Below are positions 43,633 to 51,671 of a stretch of 64,000 nucleotides of DNA, one piece after another. This DNA comes from Prevotella sp. GTDB lineage: Bacteria > Bacteroidota > Bacteroidia > Bacteroidales > Bacteroidaceae. Where the stretch lies: NCBI GenBank assembly GCA_017645645.1, contig JAGCOB010000028.1, positions 110,311-174,310 on the forward strand, in the 5' to 3' direction. The notes under the pieces are model-generated. The model was given only the letters and a program-made list of their open reading frames with translations, did not search any database and was not told the origin of the DNA. Numbering within the stretch: the first letter of the stretch is position 1; each line of letters begins with the position of its first letter. The position numbers and the translations under genes were made by a program.

Positions 43633-43664
43633 TTTGGATTGTAACTAAATTATAGTTACATTTG
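43633..43664 (+). promoter_or_regulatory. hicAB promoter with internal operator
   Basis: TTTG (43633-43636), 20 bp, TACATTTG (43657-43664). Between and overlapping them an inverted repeat TGTAACTA (43640-43647) / TAGTTACA (43653-43660) would let a HicB dimer block RNA polymerase. Confidence 0.65.
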
Positions 43665-43688
43665 CAGTTAAAAAGAAGAACTTACGAT

Positions 43689-43949
43689 ATGGGAACAAAG
43701 GAAAAGCTACGTGAAAGGTTTATGAAAATGCCTTCAGACTTTACGTTTGACGAGATGCAACGTCTGTTAGAGGGCTATGGCTATGAACGTGGCAACAAAG
43801 GCAAAACTTCTGGATCTCGACTGATTTTTAAGAATGGTGATAAACGACCTATCATGTTACATAAGCCACACCCAGGCAACATAGTTAAAGAATATGCCAT
43901 GAAGCAGGTGATGGATGATTTACGCGAAGCAGGATTTATAAAAAAATAG
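43689..43949 (+). CDS. hicA: HicA family mRNA interferase toxin
   Basis: An 86-residue toxin of the HicA type, a small double-stranded-RNA-binding-like fold that cuts mRNA. The conserved pattern is present: GYGYERGNKGKTSGSRLIF, then the active-site histidine in MLHKPHPGN, and VKEYAMKQVMDDLREAGF at the end. The open frame starts at 43662, but the ATG at 43689 is the right one. hicB starts 12 bp after the stop. The order toxin then antitoxin is the usual HicAB arrangement. Confidence 0.88.
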   Translation: MGTKEKLRERFMKMPSDFTFDEMQRLLEGYGYERGNKGKTSGSRLIFKNGDKRPIMLHKPHPGNIVKEYAMKQVMDDLREAGFIKK

Positions 43950-43961
43950 GAGGAATGTATT

Positions 43962-44306
43962 ATGAATACAATGACGTACAAGGGTTATTTAGGATCGGTG
44001 TCCTATAGCGATAAAGACCAAGTGTTCTTCGGAAAGATAGAAGGTATCAATGGTCTTGTAAACTTTGAAGGCGAGAGCGTCAAAGAATTAACGGCTGCAT
44101 TCCACGAAGCAGTGGACGACTATCTGGCATATTGTAAAGAAGAAGGGATAGAGCCTGATAAGAGTTATACAGGTGTTCTGAATGTCAGGCTTACCCCTGC
44201 TATTCATCGTCAGATAGCCAAACTTGCACTTAAAGCAGGACTTACCATCAATGCGTACATCAAAGATGCTTTGGAAGAAAAGGTAGAAGCGTCTTTAGCG
44301 GTGTAA
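43962..44306 (+). CDS. hicB: HicB family antitoxin
   Basis: A 114-residue antitoxin that neutralises HicA and represses its own promoter. The degenerate RNase-H-like N-terminal domain (KGYLGSVSYSDKDQVFFGKI, then SVKELTAAFHEAVDDYLAYC) is followed by a C-terminal ribbon-helix-helix (SYTGVLNVRLTPAIHRQIAKLALKAG...). A strong Shine-Dalgarno (AGGAGG) precedes the ATG. Confidence 0.88.
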   Translation: MNTMTYKGYLGSVSYSDKDQVFFGKIEGINGLVNFEGESVKELTAAFHEAVDDYLAYCKEEGIEPDKSYTGVLNVRLTPAIHRQIAKLALKAGLTINAYIKDALEEKVEASLAV

Positions 44307-44459: not shown

Positions 44460-45335
44460 ATGGATACATTATACATTGTTGGCAACGGTTTTGACATTCA
44501 TCATGGAATAAAGTCAAGTTATCGCGACTTTCACCAATGGATAAAACATGAGAGTGTCAATAATGTGCGATTTGCTTTCACTGTTTTTCAACTTGAGAAA
44601 TTTTTCAATGACAATTGCATATTGTGGTCTGACTTTGAGCATAATATGGGAGAGTATGATGTTGAGACTGTTGCTAACCAACGATTTGGATTATTCCCCG
44701 AGGCATTGGTTATAGAGGATATTGAAGGAATGAATGACATCGTTATCTCAAGTGGACTTTCATATCTGGATTCTCTTTCAGAAACACTGACTTCAGTATT
44801 TCGAAAGTGGATAAAAACCATAGAAACGGATAAAGAACCAGATATGTCCCTGTCAGATTCAGCGTTGTATCTGACATTCAACTATACAGACACGCTAGAA
44901 AAACTATACGGTATTCCTTTCAGTAACATCCTTCACATTCATGGTTCTATCTTGAGTGAAGAAACCCCTCTTATCGTTGGTCACAACCATAAGGTTGATC
45001 CTCTGTCTGTTGCCATAAAAGGGAACGACTTCCGAGACAATAACGAGCGTATTGACAGGATTTGTGAGATGAACAGCCTTGTTAAGCCATGTTATGAAAT
45101 CATAGAAAGAAATAGTTTCTTTTTTGAAAAGCTGAATACTATTTCCCAAATTGTTGTACTTGGAGTATCTTATAATGACATTGACCTTCCATATTTCAGG
45201 AAGGTAAAGGCATCTGTTTTGCCAGATGCTGTGTGGAAAATGGGGTGGCATACGAAAAAGGACAAAGACAAGATAGACAATTACCAACATGTTCTTAGAC
45301 TTGCTGGAGAAAAGACACTTCAATTTCAGTTTTAG
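44460..45335 (+). CDS. AbiH family abortive infection protein
   Basis: A 291-residue cytoplasmic protein. The N-terminal YIVGNGFDIHHGIKSSYRDF, central LTFNYTDTLEKLYG with the following HIHG, GHN, and C-terminal VVLGVSYNDIDLPYF are the hallmarks of AbiH, a family first found as a phage-abortive-infection factor in lactococci. The mechanism is not known. It sits between the HicAB pair and the restriction operon, fitting a defence island. Base composition is clearly AT-richer than the flanking core genes. Confidence 0.85.
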   Translation: MDTLYIVGNGFDIHHGIKSSYRDFHQWIKHESVNNVRFAFTVFQLEKFFNDNCILWSDFEHNMGEYDVETVANQRFGLFPEALVIEDIEGMNDIVISSGLSYLDSLSETLTSVFRKWIKTIETDKEPDMSLSDSALYLTFNYTDTLEKLYGIPFSNILHIHGSILSEETPLIVGHNHKVDPLSVAIKGNDFRDNNERIDRICEMNSLVKPCYEIIERNSFFFEKLNTISQIVVLGVSYNDIDLPYFRKVKASVLPDAVWKMGWHTKKDKDKIDNYQHVLRLAGEKTLQFQF

Positions 45336-45406
45336 CAAAACTCACATCATTTTATTAATAATGTGTAAAAATATAACTGGTTGTAAATAATCTCAAAGAT
45401 TATTTG

Positions 45407-45414
45407 TATTTTTG
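45407..45414 (+). promoter_or_regulatory. -7 element for the restriction-modification operon
   Basis: TATTTTTG, 25 bp before the ATG at 45440; matches TAnnTTTG. Confidence 0.5.
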
Positions 45415-45439
45415 CAAGTTAGAATAGAGTCGAAGAGAT

Positions 45440-46891
45440 ATGCAAGAGAAGTGGAACCAATTCGTATATTATCTGTGCGAAGCGCAGAAAAACGGTGTGG
45501 AGGAGCCTGAATATCATTCAACGATAGAGGCTCAGTTACAATTGTTGGGCTGGATGAGATATAAGAATGAGATATGCCATAAACCGAACTTGTCAATCGG
45601 CAACAATGGTCATATCCAGCCAGATATCCTTATTCAGAAGGATGAAAAGAAGCAGTTCGTTATCGAAGTAAAGCGTCCCTTGCATACGCAGATTGCGAAA
45701 GACAGAGACCAGTTGGTTTCTTACATGCGTCAGTTGAAACTGAAAGCTGGCATCTACATCGGAGAGCATATCGAGATATTCTATGACCAGCCTGACAGCG
45801 AAAATGCAGTATCTGTTCTCTCGATTCCTTTGGAATTGGATAACAAACGGGGTGCCCGTTTCGTTGAACTGTTCTCGAAAGACCGCTTTAGCAAAGAGGC
45901 TATTGTTCAGTTCTGTGAGGATCGCATCAAGGAAATGCGCCATCAGGAGAGTCTGAACAAAATCAAAGACCATCTGATTACTGATGCCCAAGGGCAGATA
46001 TCGGAAGGTATGAAGATGTACCTGATGGAGAAATACGGTAACACGTTCTCTGAAAGCGACATCGTAGGTATGCTTGCATCGCTGAACTTCACGGCAACGC
46101 CAAAGGACGGACAACAGTCCGTAGTAGTTGCCACTTCTGTTGCCACCTCTCAGAAAAAGGATTCAGATGCCACGCAATCCAAGCAATCTCACGACAAGAC
46201 ACAGTATTCGATAAATGGCGGCTCGTTCCAAAATAAACGTCGTTTTGTACATCAACTTGTCAAAATGTATGTCGAAGAGCATCCATCTGCAACATTCGCA
46301 GATTTGGAACAAACATTCCCTTCAATGTTGCAGGGTTCATATGGAGTAATCCGCACCGCAGACTACATTCGCGAAAAAGGAATTGAGGAATACAGGTATC
46401 TGATGAAGGACAGTGAACTGCTGCATAGCTCAGATGGTGTCACTTTCGCTGTTAGCTCCCAATGGGGAATTGGAAATACCCCCAGAGTTGTGGAATTAGC
46501 CAAGAAATTAGGCTATGTGATTACAACATCAGGAGAGGCACCTGTATCTGCACCTGTAGAGCCTAAGAAAGATGGAATGATAGCATGTGTTCTTACACGC
46601 AATGCTGATGCCAAGGGACTGTTTGATGCCGCCACACAAGCTCTGGTAGTACTGAAGGGAAGCAAAATCAATCCTCGCCATCTGGATAAGATCAAGCCAG
46701 AAACGAAGCAGAAACGTGATGCGCTGATAGCAGAATTTGCAGAACGCAAGGATGACAAACTGGTGGTAATAAAAGATGCCTCTTTCAATACGCCAAGTGG
46801 TGCTGCTGTATTCTGTGTTGGAGGCTCCGCTAATGGTTGGAAGGAATGGAGAGACGAAAACAATAATGAACTTGATATTTACAGTAAATAA
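45440..46891 (+). CDS. Type I R-like PD-(D/E)XK nuclease with DUF4357-like C-terminus
   Basis: A 483-residue protein. The N-terminal ~100 residues resemble the HsdR N-terminal nuclease domain: IQPDILIQKDEKKQFVIEVK gives Asp62, Glu76 and Lys78, the PD-(D/E)XK core. There is no helicase motor. A Ser/Gln/Lys-rich linker at about 225-260 leads to a C-terminal segment ending FNTPSGAAVFCVGGSANGWKEW, typical of DUF4357, a domain seen on restriction-associated proteins. The methyltransferase gene starts 3 bp after its stop. It may be a nuclease subunit, or a modification-dependent checkpoint of the system. Confidence 0.75.
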   Translation: MQEKWNQFVYYLCEAQKNGVEEPEYHSTIEAQLQLLGWMRYKNEICHKPNLSIGNNGHIQPDILIQKDEKKQFVIEVKRPLHTQIAKDRDQLVSYMRQLKLKAGIYIGEHIEIFYDQPDSENAVSVLSIPLELDNKRGARFVELFSKDRFSKEAIVQFCEDRIKEMRHQESLNKIKDHLITDAQGQISEGMKMYLMEKYGNTFSESDIVGMLASLNFTATPKDGQQSVVVATSVATSQKKDSDATQSKQSHDKTQYSINGGSFQNKRRFVHQLVKMYVEEHPSATFADLEQTFPSMLQGSYGVIRTADYIREKGIEEYRYLMKDSELLHSSDGVTFAVSSQWGIGNTPRVVELAKKLGYVITTSGEAPVSAPVEPKKDGMIACVLTRNADAKGLFDAATQALVVLKGSKINPRHLDKIKPETKQKRDALIAEFAERKDDKLVVIKDASFNTPSGAAVFCVGGSANGWKEWRDENNNELDIYSK

Positions 46892-46894
46892 TAT

Positions 46895-49468
46895 ATGCCC
46901 AATATACTCCAAGATAAGAACCCATTAACTTACATCAGCCTATTCAGTTGTGCTGGTGTAGGCTGTTATGGCTTCAAGATGGAGGGATTCTCTTGTATCG
47001 CTTCTGTTGAACTGAACCAGCGCAGACTGAATGTGCAGAAGTTCAACCAGAAGTGTAAGTACAGTTCTGGCTACATCTGTGGCGATATGACTGCCGACTC
47101 GACAAAGAATCTTGTTTTTGCGGAAATTGACAGATGGAAGCGAAAAGAGAAACTTAAGAAGTTGGATGTTCTGATTGCTACGCCTCCTTGTCAAGGCATC
47201 AGCGTGCAGAACCATAAGAAGAAGGATGAGATAAATCGCAACAGTCTCGTTGTTGAGTCTGTGGAAATGGTTGACAAAATTCGTCCTAAGGTGTTTGTCT
47301 TTGAGAATGTGATGGCGTTTGAAAAGACGCTTTGCATCACTAAGGATGAACGCATCATGCCAATTGGCGAATATATCCGTGAGGCTCTTGGTGAGAATTA
47401 CGTCATTTCCAGTCGTATTCTCAACTTCATGAACTACGGTTCCAATTCATCACGTACTCGTACTTTGGTGATTGGTGTTGATAAGGCTTATCGCGAGACA
47501 ATCACTCCATACGACTTATTCCCTGCATACCAGAAAGAAAAGACCCTTCGTGAAGTCGTTGGCGATTTCCCCGTTTTGGAATGGGGCGAGATTTCAAAGG
47601 ATGATTTCTATCACGCTTTCCGCACATACGATATTAGAATGCGTGATTGGATTCACGACTTGAAGGAAGGAGAATCTGCCTTTGATAATGCAGACCCTCT
47701 GAAACGTCCTCATAAGTTAGTGGACGGTGAAGTTGTAGAAAACATCAGAAAGAACAGGGATAAATATACCCGTCAGAAGTGGGACAGATTTATTCAGTGT
47801 GTTCATACACGAAATGACCAGTTGGCTGCACAGAACACAGTTCACCCAGAACAGGATAGAGTATTCAGTATTCGTGAGTTGATGACGATGATGAATATCC
47901 CTAAGACTTTCAATTGGGTAGACAAACCACTGGAGGTATTGAACACGATGTCTGATGCAGAGAAACGTAAGGTTTACAAGGAACACGAAACAAATATTCG
48001 TCAGTGTCTTGGCGAAGCTGTTCCTACTATTATCATGCAGCAGATAGCCCATAACATCAAGACGCTATTTGGCAGGAAATTGGTAGGCTCTGCTGAAATA
48101 AATAAAATTATTGAGAGCCAAAACTTGGTAGAAAGACAAAACCTGCTGGACTTCTTGGACGCTAATCCATTGGACTTAGATGTACCATCATTGATGCGAA
48201 TCACAGAACTCTGTAATGCAGAGAGAGAGAAGAACGCAGCTTTCTATACCAATAAGTTTTTGGTGAATGACACCGTTGACAAACTCCCTGATTTCACTCA
48301 GCCTGAAATCAGGATTATTGAACCGTCAGGCGGAGCAGGAAGTTTTGTTCCTTTCCTCATAAAGAAGTACGCTTATGTGCCTCATGTGATTCTTGATATC
48401 ATTGATATTGATCCCAACAGCATAGCCAACTTGAAACTGCTGCTGAAATACATCGATATTCCTGAGAACTTCACCATCAACTTGATCTGTAGCGATTTCT
48501 TATATTATGATTCGCCTTACAAGTATGACTTGGCCGTTGGTAATCCTCCCTTCTCAAAACTGAAGCAAAAGGCAAGAGATATTTCTTTCTGGTTCTTCCA
48601 GAATGTGAATCAGAACACCAACGACCTGGCAGAAATGTTCTTGGAGAAGTGCATGTTTATAGCTGACTGCGTAGCATTAATTCTGAATAAGAACATTCTC
48701 AGCGGTGAAGAATTCTTCCCAACTCACAACCTCCTGCGAAAGGTAAAGATTGATAGCATCATTGACTTTGGCAGACATGGATTTACTGGTGTTTCTATTG
48801 AAACAATCTGTATGATAGTATATCCCAAGCAGAAGCCGGGTGAAACGACGGTGTACAATATGAAGTACAACAAAATCTACCATCAGAAGCAGAGCTACAT
48901 CACAGACAAGAAGTACCCATACTTCATCATCTATCGTGATGTGGACTTTGATAGGGTGGCAGACAAACTGGACTTCAATGTTTTCACCGTATTCAGAGAC
49001 CGTCAGATAACGAAGCAGAACTCCACTAAGGAGGATGGCGACAGCAGGATGTGGGTTATAAAGGGACGCAATATCGATGATGATGCCAAAGGCATTACTC
49101 ATATTCCTGAGTATGATACCTTCATTGATATCAGTGTCGCAAAGGAACTCAATTCCTATATCTATGTGAATGATAGTAACGTCTATCTGACACCCAACAT
49201 GACTTATAACACTCGTGTTATCAAGAATATTCCCAATGTCATTGCTGATGGTTCTGTAGCGGTGTTGATTCCCAGACAGAAAGGAATGGCACTGACAGAT
49301 GCTCAGATGGCATACTTCTCTTCAGACGAGTACAGAAAATTCTATATCACAGCAAGGAACCTTTCTACTCAATCTATCAATGTTGACAAATGTAGTGTTT
49401 ACTTTTACGGCATATTAAAGAATGACAGCAAATCTATTGGAGCAGTTCCTGGATGCTCACGACTATGA
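46895..49468 (+). CDS. Fused cytosine-C5 and adenine-N6 DNA methyltransferase
   Basis: An 857-residue protein with two modification enzymes in one chain. Residues 10-400: C5-cytosine methyltransferase, with LFSCAGVGCYGF (motif I), TPPCQG (catalytic Cys99) and FENV (motif VI), and motifs IX/X near QDRVFSIRELM and GEAVPTIIMQQIAH. Residues ~420-857: class I N6-adenine methyltransferase, with EPSGGAGSF (Glu476, SAM binding) and NPPF (550-553, catalytic). Such pairs protect the two strands of an asymmetric recognition site. The HNH nuclease gene starts inside its last 47 bp, so both are translated together. Confidence 0.9.
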   Translation: MPNILQDKNPLTYISLFSCAGVGCYGFKMEGFSCIASVELNQRRLNVQKFNQKCKYSSGYICGDMTADSTKNLVFAEIDRWKRKEKLKKLDVLIATPPCQGISVQNHKKKDEINRNSLVVESVEMVDKIRPKVFVFENVMAFEKTLCITKDERIMPIGEYIREALGENYVISSRILNFMNYGSNSSRTRTLVIGVDKAYRETITPYDLFPAYQKEKTLREVVGDFPVLEWGEISKDDFYHAFRTYDIRMRDWIHDLKEGESAFDNADPLKRPHKLVDGEVVENIRKNRDKYTRQKWDRFIQCVHTRNDQLAAQNTVHPEQDRVFSIRELMTMMNIPKTFNWVDKPLEVLNTMSDAEKRKVYKEHETNIRQCLGEAVPTIIMQQIAHNIKTLFGRKLVGSAEINKIIESQNLVERQNLLDFLDANPLDLDVPSLMRITELCNAEREKNAAFYTNKFLVNDTVDKLPDFTQPEIRIIEPSGGAGSFVPFLIKKYAYVPHVILDIIDIDPNSIANLKLLLKYIDIPENFTINLICSDFLYYDSPYKYDLAVGNPPFSKLKQKARDISFWFFQNVNQNTNDLAEMFLEKCMFIADCVALILNKNILSGEEFFPTHNLLRKVKIDSIIDFGRHGFTGVSIETICMIVYPKQKPGETTVYNMKYNKIYHQKQSYITDKKYPYFIIYRDVDFDRVADKLDFNVFTVFRDRQITKQNSTKEDGDSRMWVIKGRNIDDDAKGITHIPEYDTFIDISVAKELNSYIYVNDSNVYLTPNMTYNTRVIKNIPNVIADGSVAVLIPRQKGMALTDAQMAYFSSDEYRKFYITARNLSTQSINVDKCSVYFYGILKNDSKSIGAVPGCSRL

Positions 49469-50636
49469 TATAAGAAAGAGCCGCAATGGCAGGTGGATAG
49501 ACCAGAAATGTACAATGGATGAATTGTGCTTCGTGGCAGACTGTGTTGTAGTTTATCTGCAAGAAGGAGGGCAACAACCATTCCAGTCACCAGACATCTG
49601 GCACACTCCGTATGCGATAGAGAATGTTCAGAAGCTCTTTAGCAAGCCTGACCCTACGGATAAATCCACAATTGACGAATACAACAAGTTCTTCCGTCAG
49701 CCCTTGAAGATGCTGGCTGCAGCAGGTGTGCTTCGCGAGGATGGCAAGAAGAACAACACTATTCAGTTTAGCGTAGAAAATGAGGCAGTTTTGGATTACC
49801 TTTCACTCAGAGAAAGGAACTGCTTTGATTTTCTCTGCTCATACATCACCAAGACATTGAAAGACAGTGGTCTTTGGGATGCCTTTGAGTCATTCTTCGA
49901 TGAACAAACCAAAGAGCAATACAACAACGTGAAAGAAAAGTTCCGCCAGTTCTGTTGGGATTATACCCCCATCAATAATCAGGCTGAGCCAAACCGTATT
50001 TTCACAAAGGTGTTAAACCCTTTGGCTGTACTCTACAAAAAGAAGGGAACTGTTGGTGGTGCTCTCTCCAAAAAGATCATCACGTTGGAAGACATCAAAT
50101 ATAACCGCACTAACTTCCGCGATAAAGACAAAGACAAGAACGTGTCGCGTCAGCAGGCTCTGGTTGCAGACAAAGTTCAAGAGGATATCTACGACTACAA
50201 TGTTGAGAAAGCAAAGCGCCGTCTTCGCAAATTCAACGATAAGTTCAACGGTGCTCGTTCTGAAATATTGGATTCTATGGCAATAGGCCAACAGGCAACC
50301 CACATGCACCACATATTCCCCAAGCATGAGTTCCCTGTTATCGCAGACTATGTAGAAAATCTGATTGCATTGACAGCGGGCCAGCATTTGCAAAAAGCGC
50401 ATCCTGCTGGCAATACTCAGGTAATAGACAGAGACTATCAATACATCTGCCTTATCAGTAAGACAGAAAGCATCCGTAAGAATCTCGTTGATGGTATTGG
50501 TGAACCGCTTTATGATTTTTTCCTTTTCATGTTTGTTCTTGATACAGGTCTTCGTACTGATTATTTCGAGGCATTACCTGAGAATGATTTTGCACAAGTG
50601 GCATCAGGAATAGACATTAATTTCCCTAACAAGTAG
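49422..50636 (+). CDS. HNH restriction endonuclease candidate
   Basis: A 404-residue protein with a beta-beta-alpha-metal (HNH) active site in its C-terminal third: THMHHIFPK (His296, His297), then ENLIAL (Asn313) and GQHLQKAH (His322, His327). The N-terminal ~250 residues are helical, charged, and probably recognise DNA (YCxD-like segment near 30-40). HNH type IIS enzymes of the Eco31I/Esp3I kind accompany a C5 plus N6 methyltransferase pair, as here, but I did not align it to them. It starts within the methyltransferase frame (47-bp overlap). Confidence 0.8.
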   Translation: MTANLLEQFLDAHDYDIRKSRNGRWIDQKCTMDELCFVADCVVVYLQEGGQQPFQSPDIWHTPYAIENVQKLFSKPDPTDKSTIDEYNKFFRQPLKMLAAAGVLREDGKKNNTIQFSVENEAVLDYLSLRERNCFDFLCSYITKTLKDSGLWDAFESFFDEQTKEQYNNVKEKFRQFCWDYTPINNQAEPNRIFTKVLNPLAVLYKKKGTVGGALSKKIITLEDIKYNRTNFRDKDKDKNVSRQQALVADKVQEDIYDYNVEKAKRRLRKFNDKFNGARSEILDSMAIGQQATHMHHIFPKHEFPVIADYVENLIALTAGQHLQKAHPAGNTQVIDRDYQYICLISKTESIRKNLVDGIGEPLYDFFLFMFVLDTGLRTDYFEALPENDFAQVASGIDINFPNK

Positions 50637-50754
50637 AACTCATAGGTCTAATGCTCCAAGTGAAAAAGCCTGAGTGCGCAAGAAAGTCTAATCTATGAGA
50701 TACCACCTTGTGGTTGAGGTATTATCAATAACGATAAAATGAATAACGGACAAA

Positions 50755-50877
50755 ATGGGAGAGTATTTCTTATCTAAAGAGCGGTTAGAATATGTGTGTA
50801 AAGACTATAATACTACGACTGTTTTGAATGAAGCAAAGGAAATATGGGACAATATGCTCACGACTTGGATAATTTAG
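50755..50877 (+). CDS. Possible small ORF, 40 codons
   Basis: ATG at 50755 to TAG at 50877 (starts MGEYFLSKERLEYVCKDY). It overlaps the start of the 275-aa gene in another frame. It could be a small cistron, or the N-terminal part of the next gene detached by a frameshift. Confidence 0.3.
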   Translation: MGEYFLSKERLEYVCKDYNTTTVLNEAKEIWDNMLTTWII

Positions 50878-51671
50878 AGGAAGATATCTTTGAGATTATT
50901 CCTATGGAGTTTCTGTCCTCACCTGTTTTTGAGAAAGAAATCCTAAAGAGCCAATATGGATTACAATGGAGTCTTCTTGTAGGTCTTGAATTAACTCTCA
51001 AAGAATCTCTTGAAGGGAAAGATGCTGTAACAAAGGTGAAGATAAAAAGCATGTTCCGCTCACTAATTCAAGATGGAGTACCTTCAATTTATATGTTTAT
51101 TTCATTTTTGGTTAAGTGTTACTGTGAGAATAATAATAAAAAGATAAATTTAAAAAAGATAAGAGCAACTTTATTTTCTATTGGAGTCCTCAATACCCCA
51201 GAAATAGACATGTATTCAGAAGATGCTCCTTTCACAAATAATCTCACAACAGAAATAATAAAATGGAATGAAATAAAGGATGCTATTTGTCGACTTGAAA
51301 ATGAGTGCCGATATGCAGAAACCACAATGGATTTTCAGAATTTGGGGAATTCTTGTCGCCATTTGCTTATAAAAGTTGCTCAAATGGTTTATGATTCTCA
51401 AAAGCATAATAATGTAACAGAAACAGGAGTGGAAATAGGAAAAAACGATACTGAGGAGATGTTATCAAGCTATTTTGATTATTCATTAAAAGGGAAGCAT
51501 AATAAATATCTCAAAGCATATGCAAAAGCAACAAACGATCTTGCAAATAAACTCACACATGATACGAGCGCAACAAAGAAAGATATGTTATTAGCCGTAT
51601 CTGCAACTATTAATCTTATCTATATAGTAGGAACTATAGGAGACAAATTTAATCAAGAGAGTTTTGTGTAA
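50844..51671 (+). CDS. Hypothetical protein, 275 aa, in the defence island
   Basis: A mostly helical cytoplasmic protein. The C-terminal part (about 180-265: HLLIKVAQMVYDSQKHNN ... LKAYAKATNDLANKLTH ... LLAVSATINLI) looks like a helical domain with a conserved N-x-x-x-x-L-T-H pattern, somewhat HEPN-like, but I cannot assign it. The start ATG has an AAAGGA Shine-Dalgarno. It follows the restriction operon by about 200 bp that contain small hairpins, and is strongly AT-rich. A defence or regulatory function is inferred only from the neighbours. Confidence 0.65.
   Translation: MGQYAHDLDNLEEDIFEIIPMEFLSSPVFEKEILKSQYGLQWSLLVGLELTLKESLEGKDAVTKVKIKSMFRSLIQDGVPSIYMFISFLVKCYCENNNKKINLKKIRATLFSIGVLNTPEIDMYSEDAPFTNNLTTEIIKWNEIKDAICRLENECRYAETTMDFQNLGNSCRHLLIKVAQMVYDSQKHNNVTETGVEIGKNDTEEMLSSYFDYSLKGKHNKYLKAYAKATNDLANKLTHDTSATKKDMLLAVSATINLIYIVGTIGDKFNQESFV

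Follow-up and report, generated by a model that had tools for sequence, protein, structure and literature searches.

The restriction systems closest to the locus described here are Esp3I/BsmBI, Eco31I/BsaI and FokI. The nuclease of Esp3I/BsmBI is of the HNH type, while FokI is accompanied by two adenine methyltransferases. According to Table 3 of PMC3874165, M.Esp3I (Esp3I/BsmBI) is a fusion of a gamma-class methyltransferase with a cytosine-C5 (m5C) methyltransferase, and Eco31I/BsaI combines a gamma-class methyltransferase with a separate m5C enzyme. A passage of PMC5944983 describes M.Esp3I, M.Alw26I, M2.Eco31I and M2.BsaI as circularly permuted. Joining two methyltransferases, as in FokI, allows a 1:1 ratio of the two, as stated in the part of PMC4081073 at hand. 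Here we analyse a stretch of 64,000 nucleotides (the window) from Prevotella sp. (assembly GCA_017645645.1, contig JAGCOB010000028.1, positions 110,311 to 174,310, forward strand), in which two overlapping genes encode a fused C5/N6 methyltransferase, M, and an HNH protein, R. Judged from sequence, these genes probably constitute a Type II restriction-modification system in which M would mark both strands of an asymmetric site and R would cut the unmodified site. The system is real and intact, and it is probably functional. Within a restriction family that is already catalogued, it is a new but unremarkable member.

The fused methyltransferase and the HNH nuclease

A preliminary description of the locus had placed three genes here and read them as a condensed restriction system. 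The three open reading frames are intact, and their positions, as well as the overlap of 47 base pairs between the last two, agree exactly with the open reading frame listing. The core of the system is formed by these last two genes, M and R.

M (46895-49468, plus strand, 857 amino acids) indeed unites two methyltransferases in one chain. The C5-cytosine domain occupies 46895-48079 on the plus strand (residues 1-395, limits set by us) and matches PF00145 at 1.8e-32 over residues 12-387. Under the motif names that we assume for it, the domain contains FSCAGVG, PPCQG (residues 97-101), ENV, SRTR, RE and GEAVPT in canonical order, with a putative recognition region at about residues 196-322, between SRTR and RE; the catalytic cysteine is residue 99. 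These motifs are invariant or nearly so, and the order I to X is canonical in all 29 aligned proteins. The N6-adenine domain follows at 48080-49468 on the plus strand (residues 396-857, stop included), where PF07669 (Eco57I) matches residues 535-627 at 1.6e-7 and the EPSGGAGSF and NPPF motifs are present; from its motif order we take it to be of the gamma class. The PADLOC model MTase_II PDLC03277 (823 positions) spans residues 10-843 with 815 bits and is matched by each of the 29 fused proteins of the family. Searching the PDB with M returns C5 enzymes.

R (49422-50636, plus strand, 404 amino acids) begins inside the M gene, and the shared segment (49422-49468, plus strand) suggests translational coupling rather than the fixed ratio that had been proposed. 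The HNH nuclease announced for this gene is borne out by its motif residues and by PADLOC. The protein carries HMHHIFPK...ENLIAL...GQHLQKAH, and its HNH core lies at about residues 263-345 (50208-50456). H296, H297, E312, N313, H322 and H327 are conserved in at least 50 of 51 HNH sequences, and the residues that act are presumably among them. The PADLOC model REase_II PDLC03488 (430 positions) covers residues 1-400 with 428 bits and is matched by 30 of 30 HNH relatives. With NCBIfam, all matches of the window system's proteins stay below its cut-offs.

Linkage between methyltransferase and nuclease

For all locus counts, one view per place was retained and domains were scored in all frames. 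We excluded L003 and L007, whose M lies at a contig end and whose stretch shows no R; L008-L012, which hold other C5 enzymes; repeated views of one place; the loci that represent the first gene in the genus; and phage record MT839041 (hit H4). On this basis, 47 loci hold at least one full-length HNH gene (49 genes, with two each in L043 and L054), and C5 and N6 domains lie within 6 kb in 46 of them. The remaining locus, L056, has only 7 bases of contig ahead of R. M is partly cut at contig starts in L014, L029 and L033 and by the start of the circular record in L050; in L052 (Psychrobacter) it lies on the opposite strand.

Six further loci contain partial HNH genes. In L040 and L046 the HNH gene is partial from the contig end and M is present, and the contig of L030 begins inside the HNH gene. 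L015, L042 and L088 have no M, and their R is N-terminally truncated: the matches start at about residue 41 (L015), 228 or 257 (L042) and 111 or 155 (L088), depending on whether the profile or the open reading frame is used. At L015:4585-9092, two other open reading frames stand in place of M and of the first 40 residues of R, while the first gene is kept and the remaining R is nearly identical to that of the window. Truncated R at loci without M would fit a nuclease that is tolerated only together with its methyltransferase. Taken together, the comparison of loci supports the view that M and R belong together as one system.

A different view would be that the two methyltransferase domains recognise sites unrelated to each other, with a regulatory role for one or both, and that the HNH protein acts independently of them as a nuclease, for example of the homing type or a modification-dependent one. 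It draws on the database searches with R: Pfam gives no HNH match for the window protein at E<=1, PF01844 (HNH) is reached by 5 of 30 R relatives with a best value of 0.034, and PHROGs returns weak HNH (0.0082) and homing-endonuclease (0.021) matches. The linkage at 46 of 47 loci, the fusion of all three domains at three loci and the PADLOC assignment to a Type II restriction endonuclease family speak for a restriction enzyme instead, and we regard separate functions as very improbable. The concern that R might stem from a homing or other non-restriction HNH family is thus answered by its Type II model match and its link to M.

Recognition site and cleavage

Recognition regions usually diverge faster than the rest of the enzyme where sites differ. 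In this family they are about as conserved as the catalytic parts. Clade by clade, identity to the window in the C5 recognition region (196-322) and catalytic part (8-195) is 77/65, 65/64, 60/63, 55/58 and 56/55%; for the C-terminal half and the catalytic part of the N6 domain it is 62/61, 53/45, 48/44, 41/42 and 40/37%. From this we infer a common site for the methyltransferases of the family. Since both the C5 and the N6 domain are intact, that site would be asymmetric, provided that both domains share it.

In the proposed process, M and R would act as a Type II restriction-modification system on an asymmetric DNA site. The C5 domain of M would methylate a cytosine on one strand and the N6 domain an adenine on the other. 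R would cut the same site when unmodified and thereby destroy incoming phage or plasmid DNA. This supposes active enzymes and a single sequence that is recognised by both methyltransferases as well as by the nuclease; cleavage outside the site, as in Type IIS enzymes, would be the least certain step. The intact frames, the conserved motifs, the co-occurrence of M and R, the truncated R at loci without M and the conserved recognition regions make this the best explanation.

Several observations weigh against it. PDB searches with R and with an R profile gave weak, unrelated matches and no structural relative. In distant clades the HNH core of R is better conserved than its N-terminal and middle parts (for example 54 versus 40 and 37%), which leaves a shared R site unsupported. 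The loci with truncated R number only three and are contigs of uncertain assembly, partly from metagenome-assembled genomes (MAGs). Lastly, nine C5 enzymes of other families, at 14-27% (recognition region) and 21-32% (catalytic part) identity, are too distant to serve as a strong control.

The mode of cleavage deserves separate attention. R may cut within or at the edge of the asymmetric site, which would make the Type IIS label wrong for an otherwise unchanged system. Nothing in the sequence fixes the cut position, and the HNH family is one without a solved relative. Against this, the HNH core sits in the C-terminal third of R, behind some 260 residues that could be the recognition part, as in the Type IIS layout of N-terminal recognition and C-terminal cleavage outlined in the part of PMC4081073 at hand; the same text has systems with two different methyltransferases as mostly Type IIS. 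Cleavage within the site or at its edge is an unlikely though real possibility, and from the layout of R Type IIS cleavage is plausible.

The upstream gene and its surroundings

The first gene of the three (45440-46891, plus strand, 483 amino acids) ends three bases before M. Its C-terminus is a DUF4357 domain (PF14267, 1.6e-14), and its N-terminus resembles PD-(D/E)XK nucleases, with sub-threshold PD-(D/E)XK/HSDR_N matches of 0.018-0.072 (HSDR_N_2 0.018) around PDILIQKDEKKQFVIEVKRP. It matches PADLOC PDC-S14 (1.5e-21), and similar proteins are filed under the candidate systems PDC-S14 and PDC-S57. A PDB search with this gene returned weak, unrelated matches.

Such a gene could cooperate with M and R as a second nuclease or an accessory subunit. 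Its distance from M points that way, and so does the block that the window shares with L013, a Prevotella MAG: first gene, M and R are common to both (45350-50636, plus strand; blastn 93.6% over 5288 columns), and the block ends exactly at the stop codon of R. Other loci contradict a three-gene system. L016 shares only window positions 46925-50638 and lacks the first gene, despite identities of 94% (C5), 93% (N6) and 98% (HNH), and L015 retains the gene after the loss of M. Of 150 genomes of the genus, 39 have a match to some portion of the first gene, and at all 12 genus loci examined besides the window and G018 no match to M or R was found within about 1.5 kb; in the loci of other clades it is not adjacent to M. 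We consider cooperation of the three genes very improbable and reject the first gene as a subunit. Because it is absent from L016 and occurs without M or R elsewhere, it looks like a passenger, and its distribution indicates that it is probably an optional one. Of the proposed condensed system, a Type II HNH nuclease with a bifunctional M is supported, M and R occurring together at 46 of 47 loci; the grouping of three genes as one system is not.

Just upstream of the system, the window contains an AbiH gene (44460-45335; PF14253, 1.1e-52) and a HicA/HicB pair (43662-44306; 1.1e-8 and 1.5e-16), which places the system in a defence island. Downstream of R lies a protein of 275 amino acids (50844-51671) without significant match in Pfam, NCBIfam or PADLOC and with a short PHROGs match of 2.2e-4. 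The genome of the window is rated 64% complete.

Single-chain relatives and a small partner gene

The family comprises several degrees of gene fusion. Among the 46 loci with M, three have separate genes (L050, L051, L057), 40 have a fused M and a separate R, and three encode C5, N6 and HNH domains in a single uninterrupted frame: L025:5487-9227 (plus strand, 1,247 amino acids), L031:287-4015 (plus strand, 1,243 amino acids) and L066:1340-5149 (minus strand, 1,270 amino acids). L066 comes from a genome rated 99% complete, and about 26 residues separate its N6 and HNH matches. L025 and L031 are MAG contigs with almost no residues between these matches. Both keep an in-frame ATG at the former start of R, so a free R could still be made.

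According to the starred branches of the M tree, the single-chain label must have changed three times, and some of these changes could in principle be losses. In the HNH tree, L025 and L031 are paired without a star (83/95), and L066 belongs to a different starred clade. On this phylogenetic evidence the single-chain form likely has at least two origins. No further case was found in 150 genomes of the G418 family, 29 of the G457 genus and 6 of the G456 genus. A literature search by title and abstract opening found no single-chain m5C-m6A-HNH enzyme, although the search was limited and does not prove that none exists.

A small protein domain of about 100-135 amino acids adjoins R in 15 of the 47 loci (L023, L024, L027, L029, L032, L043, L044, L050, L052, L054, L055, L056, L066, L101 and L104). 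Examples beside R are L023:9620-10015, L050:3250-3606, L066:960-1325 (minus strand) and L101:6075-6446. The gene mostly lies after R; in L043 it separates M from R, and in L054 it is flanked by two R genes. Fewer than 500 bases of downstream sequence are available in three of the 47 loci (L014, L034, L051). The matches are weak in L043 (31 bits) and L104 (33 bits), and two copies each are present in L023, L024 and L027. In these three loci and in L044 the domain is joined to a C-terminal HNH region, which in L023 matches PF01844 at 8.3e-6 and in L027 differs in some of these residues. The small domain itself has no significant named match in Pfam, PADLOC, NCBIfam or PHROGs.

Separate (L050), fused and single-chain (L066) systems can all have the small gene, which is not found with L025, L031 or L057. 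In the clade of the window, it is absent from all nine loci with more than 1 kb of downstream sequence (window, L013, L016-L022). The copy from L066 finds two plasmid records, both with the HNH gene of this family. Profile A3 matches 2 of 324 genomes of the host's order, one beside R (G272) and one weakly, with stops in frame (G150). It also matches 2 of 325 genomes of the Blautia order, namely G455 beside R and G605 (L098/L100) at a contig start where R is not visible. In the collections searched, the small gene is thus found almost only beside the HNH/M family; the small-domain profile was built from copies beside R and could miss distant use elsewhere.

These observations could be joined into one reading, whose chances we judge to be evenly balanced. 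The family would form a condensation series from three overlapping genes through a fused M with separate R to a chain of about 1,250 amino acids, the last stage having been reached at least twice. A small dedicated partner would accompany all three stages and be joined in some members to a second HNH nuclease; the window would represent the middle stage without partner. In that case a single protein would methylate both strands with two different chemistries and carry out restriction as well, and a third component of the system would so far have gone unrecognised. It is the single-chain relatives and the small third gene that merit further work. Members of each condensation stage exist and may recognise the same site, so that what fusion costs and what it gains could be compared directly. 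The small gene makes it possible to test for dedicated small accessory proteins in Type II systems. A new HNH enzyme and its recognition site could also have practical use.

Distribution and phylogeny

The family ranges over Bacteroidota, Bacillota, Spirochaetota, plasmids of Acinetobacter and Psychrobacter, and viral contigs. A scan of genome contigs yielded 34 loci with the HNH protein, under titles that include Prevotella, other Bacteroidota, Spirochaetota, Oscillospiraceae and Lachnospiraceae. The HNH gene is present in 3 of 72,556 plasmid records (two Acinetobacter, one Psychrobacter) and in 2 of 50,697 phage records, and IMG/VR contributes four loci. With the 30-row HNH profile A1, 8 of 393 genomes of the host's order are matched, including the window's own and a weak partial match (G268), as are 4 of 392 genomes of the order of Blautia schinkii, including that genome and one truncated copy. 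The distribution of the system is sparse.

The trees comprise 51 rows (HNH) and 38 rows (M); rows with cut domains and some near duplicates were left out. The window falls in a clade of nine rows with records from Spirochaetota and Bacillota (HNH tree 100/99, M tree 100/100). Copies from its own genus (L004/L069 and L005) lie apart from it, with R about 41-42% identical. This placement with other phyla, away from copies of the same genus, indicates transfer between phyla.

Some members depart from the common gene layout. L089:2138-5864 (G268) is a divergent relative with a fused M of 799 amino acids (C5 49%, N6 30% identical), followed by an open reading frame of 449 amino acids whose remote similarity to R is below the HNH threshold, outside the 47 loci. 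At L067:7155-9911, the frame of the HNH gene continues to 919 amino acids with a C-terminal extension without identification. L043:8001-10458 and L054:3151-6257 each contain two full-length HNH genes per system, and their second copies group together on a long branch of the HNH tree. From this arrangement, a two-subunit nuclease is possible in L043 and L054.

Comparison with known systems

The PADLOC models PDLC03277 and PDLC03488, which presumably originate from REBASE, cover the whole fused M and the whole HNH protein of the window. Full-length models of both proteins mean that the architecture is already catalogued. The models name no characterised enzyme, so that no site or cut position can be transferred from them. 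We considered the fused M as a novelty in itself and rejected it, given this full-length model and the fusion in Esp3I/BsmBI listed in PMC3874165 (Table 3). The preliminary description had credited Esp3I with separate methyltransferases; M.Esp3I being fused according to that table, the contrast drawn with known systems fails for Esp3I, and the claim of novelty cannot be upheld as written.

As the window system would, Eco31I/BsaI pairs an m6A with an m5C methyltransferase, each serving one strand of an asymmetric site, as far as the relevant parts of PMC4659465 and PMC3874165 describe it. It differs in having two separate methyltransferases and a permuted M2 (Table 3 of PMC3874165; the passage in PMC5944983). 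Furthermore, in the Escherichia coli EC958 copy outlined in PMC4659465, the Eco31I/BsaI-type R is on the opposite strand, unlike in the window; Eco31I genes were absent from the three stretches of EC958 that we examined. FokI resembles the window in that its two methyltransferases form one chain and its nuclease, which is Type IIS, is a separate protein, and is unlike it in that this nuclease belongs to the PD-D/EXK type, both according to the available part of PMC4081073.

The separate M and R of the window are unlike the arrangement of Type IIG/IIC enzymes (Eco57I, BcgI, MmeI). These enzymes, to our knowledge, lack an m5C domain, and their nuclease is of the PD-(D/E)XK type. They combine restriction and modification in a single chain or complex built on a gamma-class methyltransferase, as the part of PMC4081073 at hand presents them, and are comparable to L025, L031 and L066.

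Esp3I/BsmBI offers the nearest functional parallel, since both modification enzymes are fused, with the order reversed: the window has the C5 domain first and Esp3I the gamma-class domain (PMC3874165, Table 3). In addition, the C5 domain of the window has its motifs in canonical order, in contrast to the circularly permuted C5 enzymes of the Esp3I/Alw26I/Eco31I/BsaI group named in the passage of PMC5944983. By analogy, the M of the window would work like the Esp3I modification enzyme, yet it fails two features of that group, domain order and permutation, as these sources define them.

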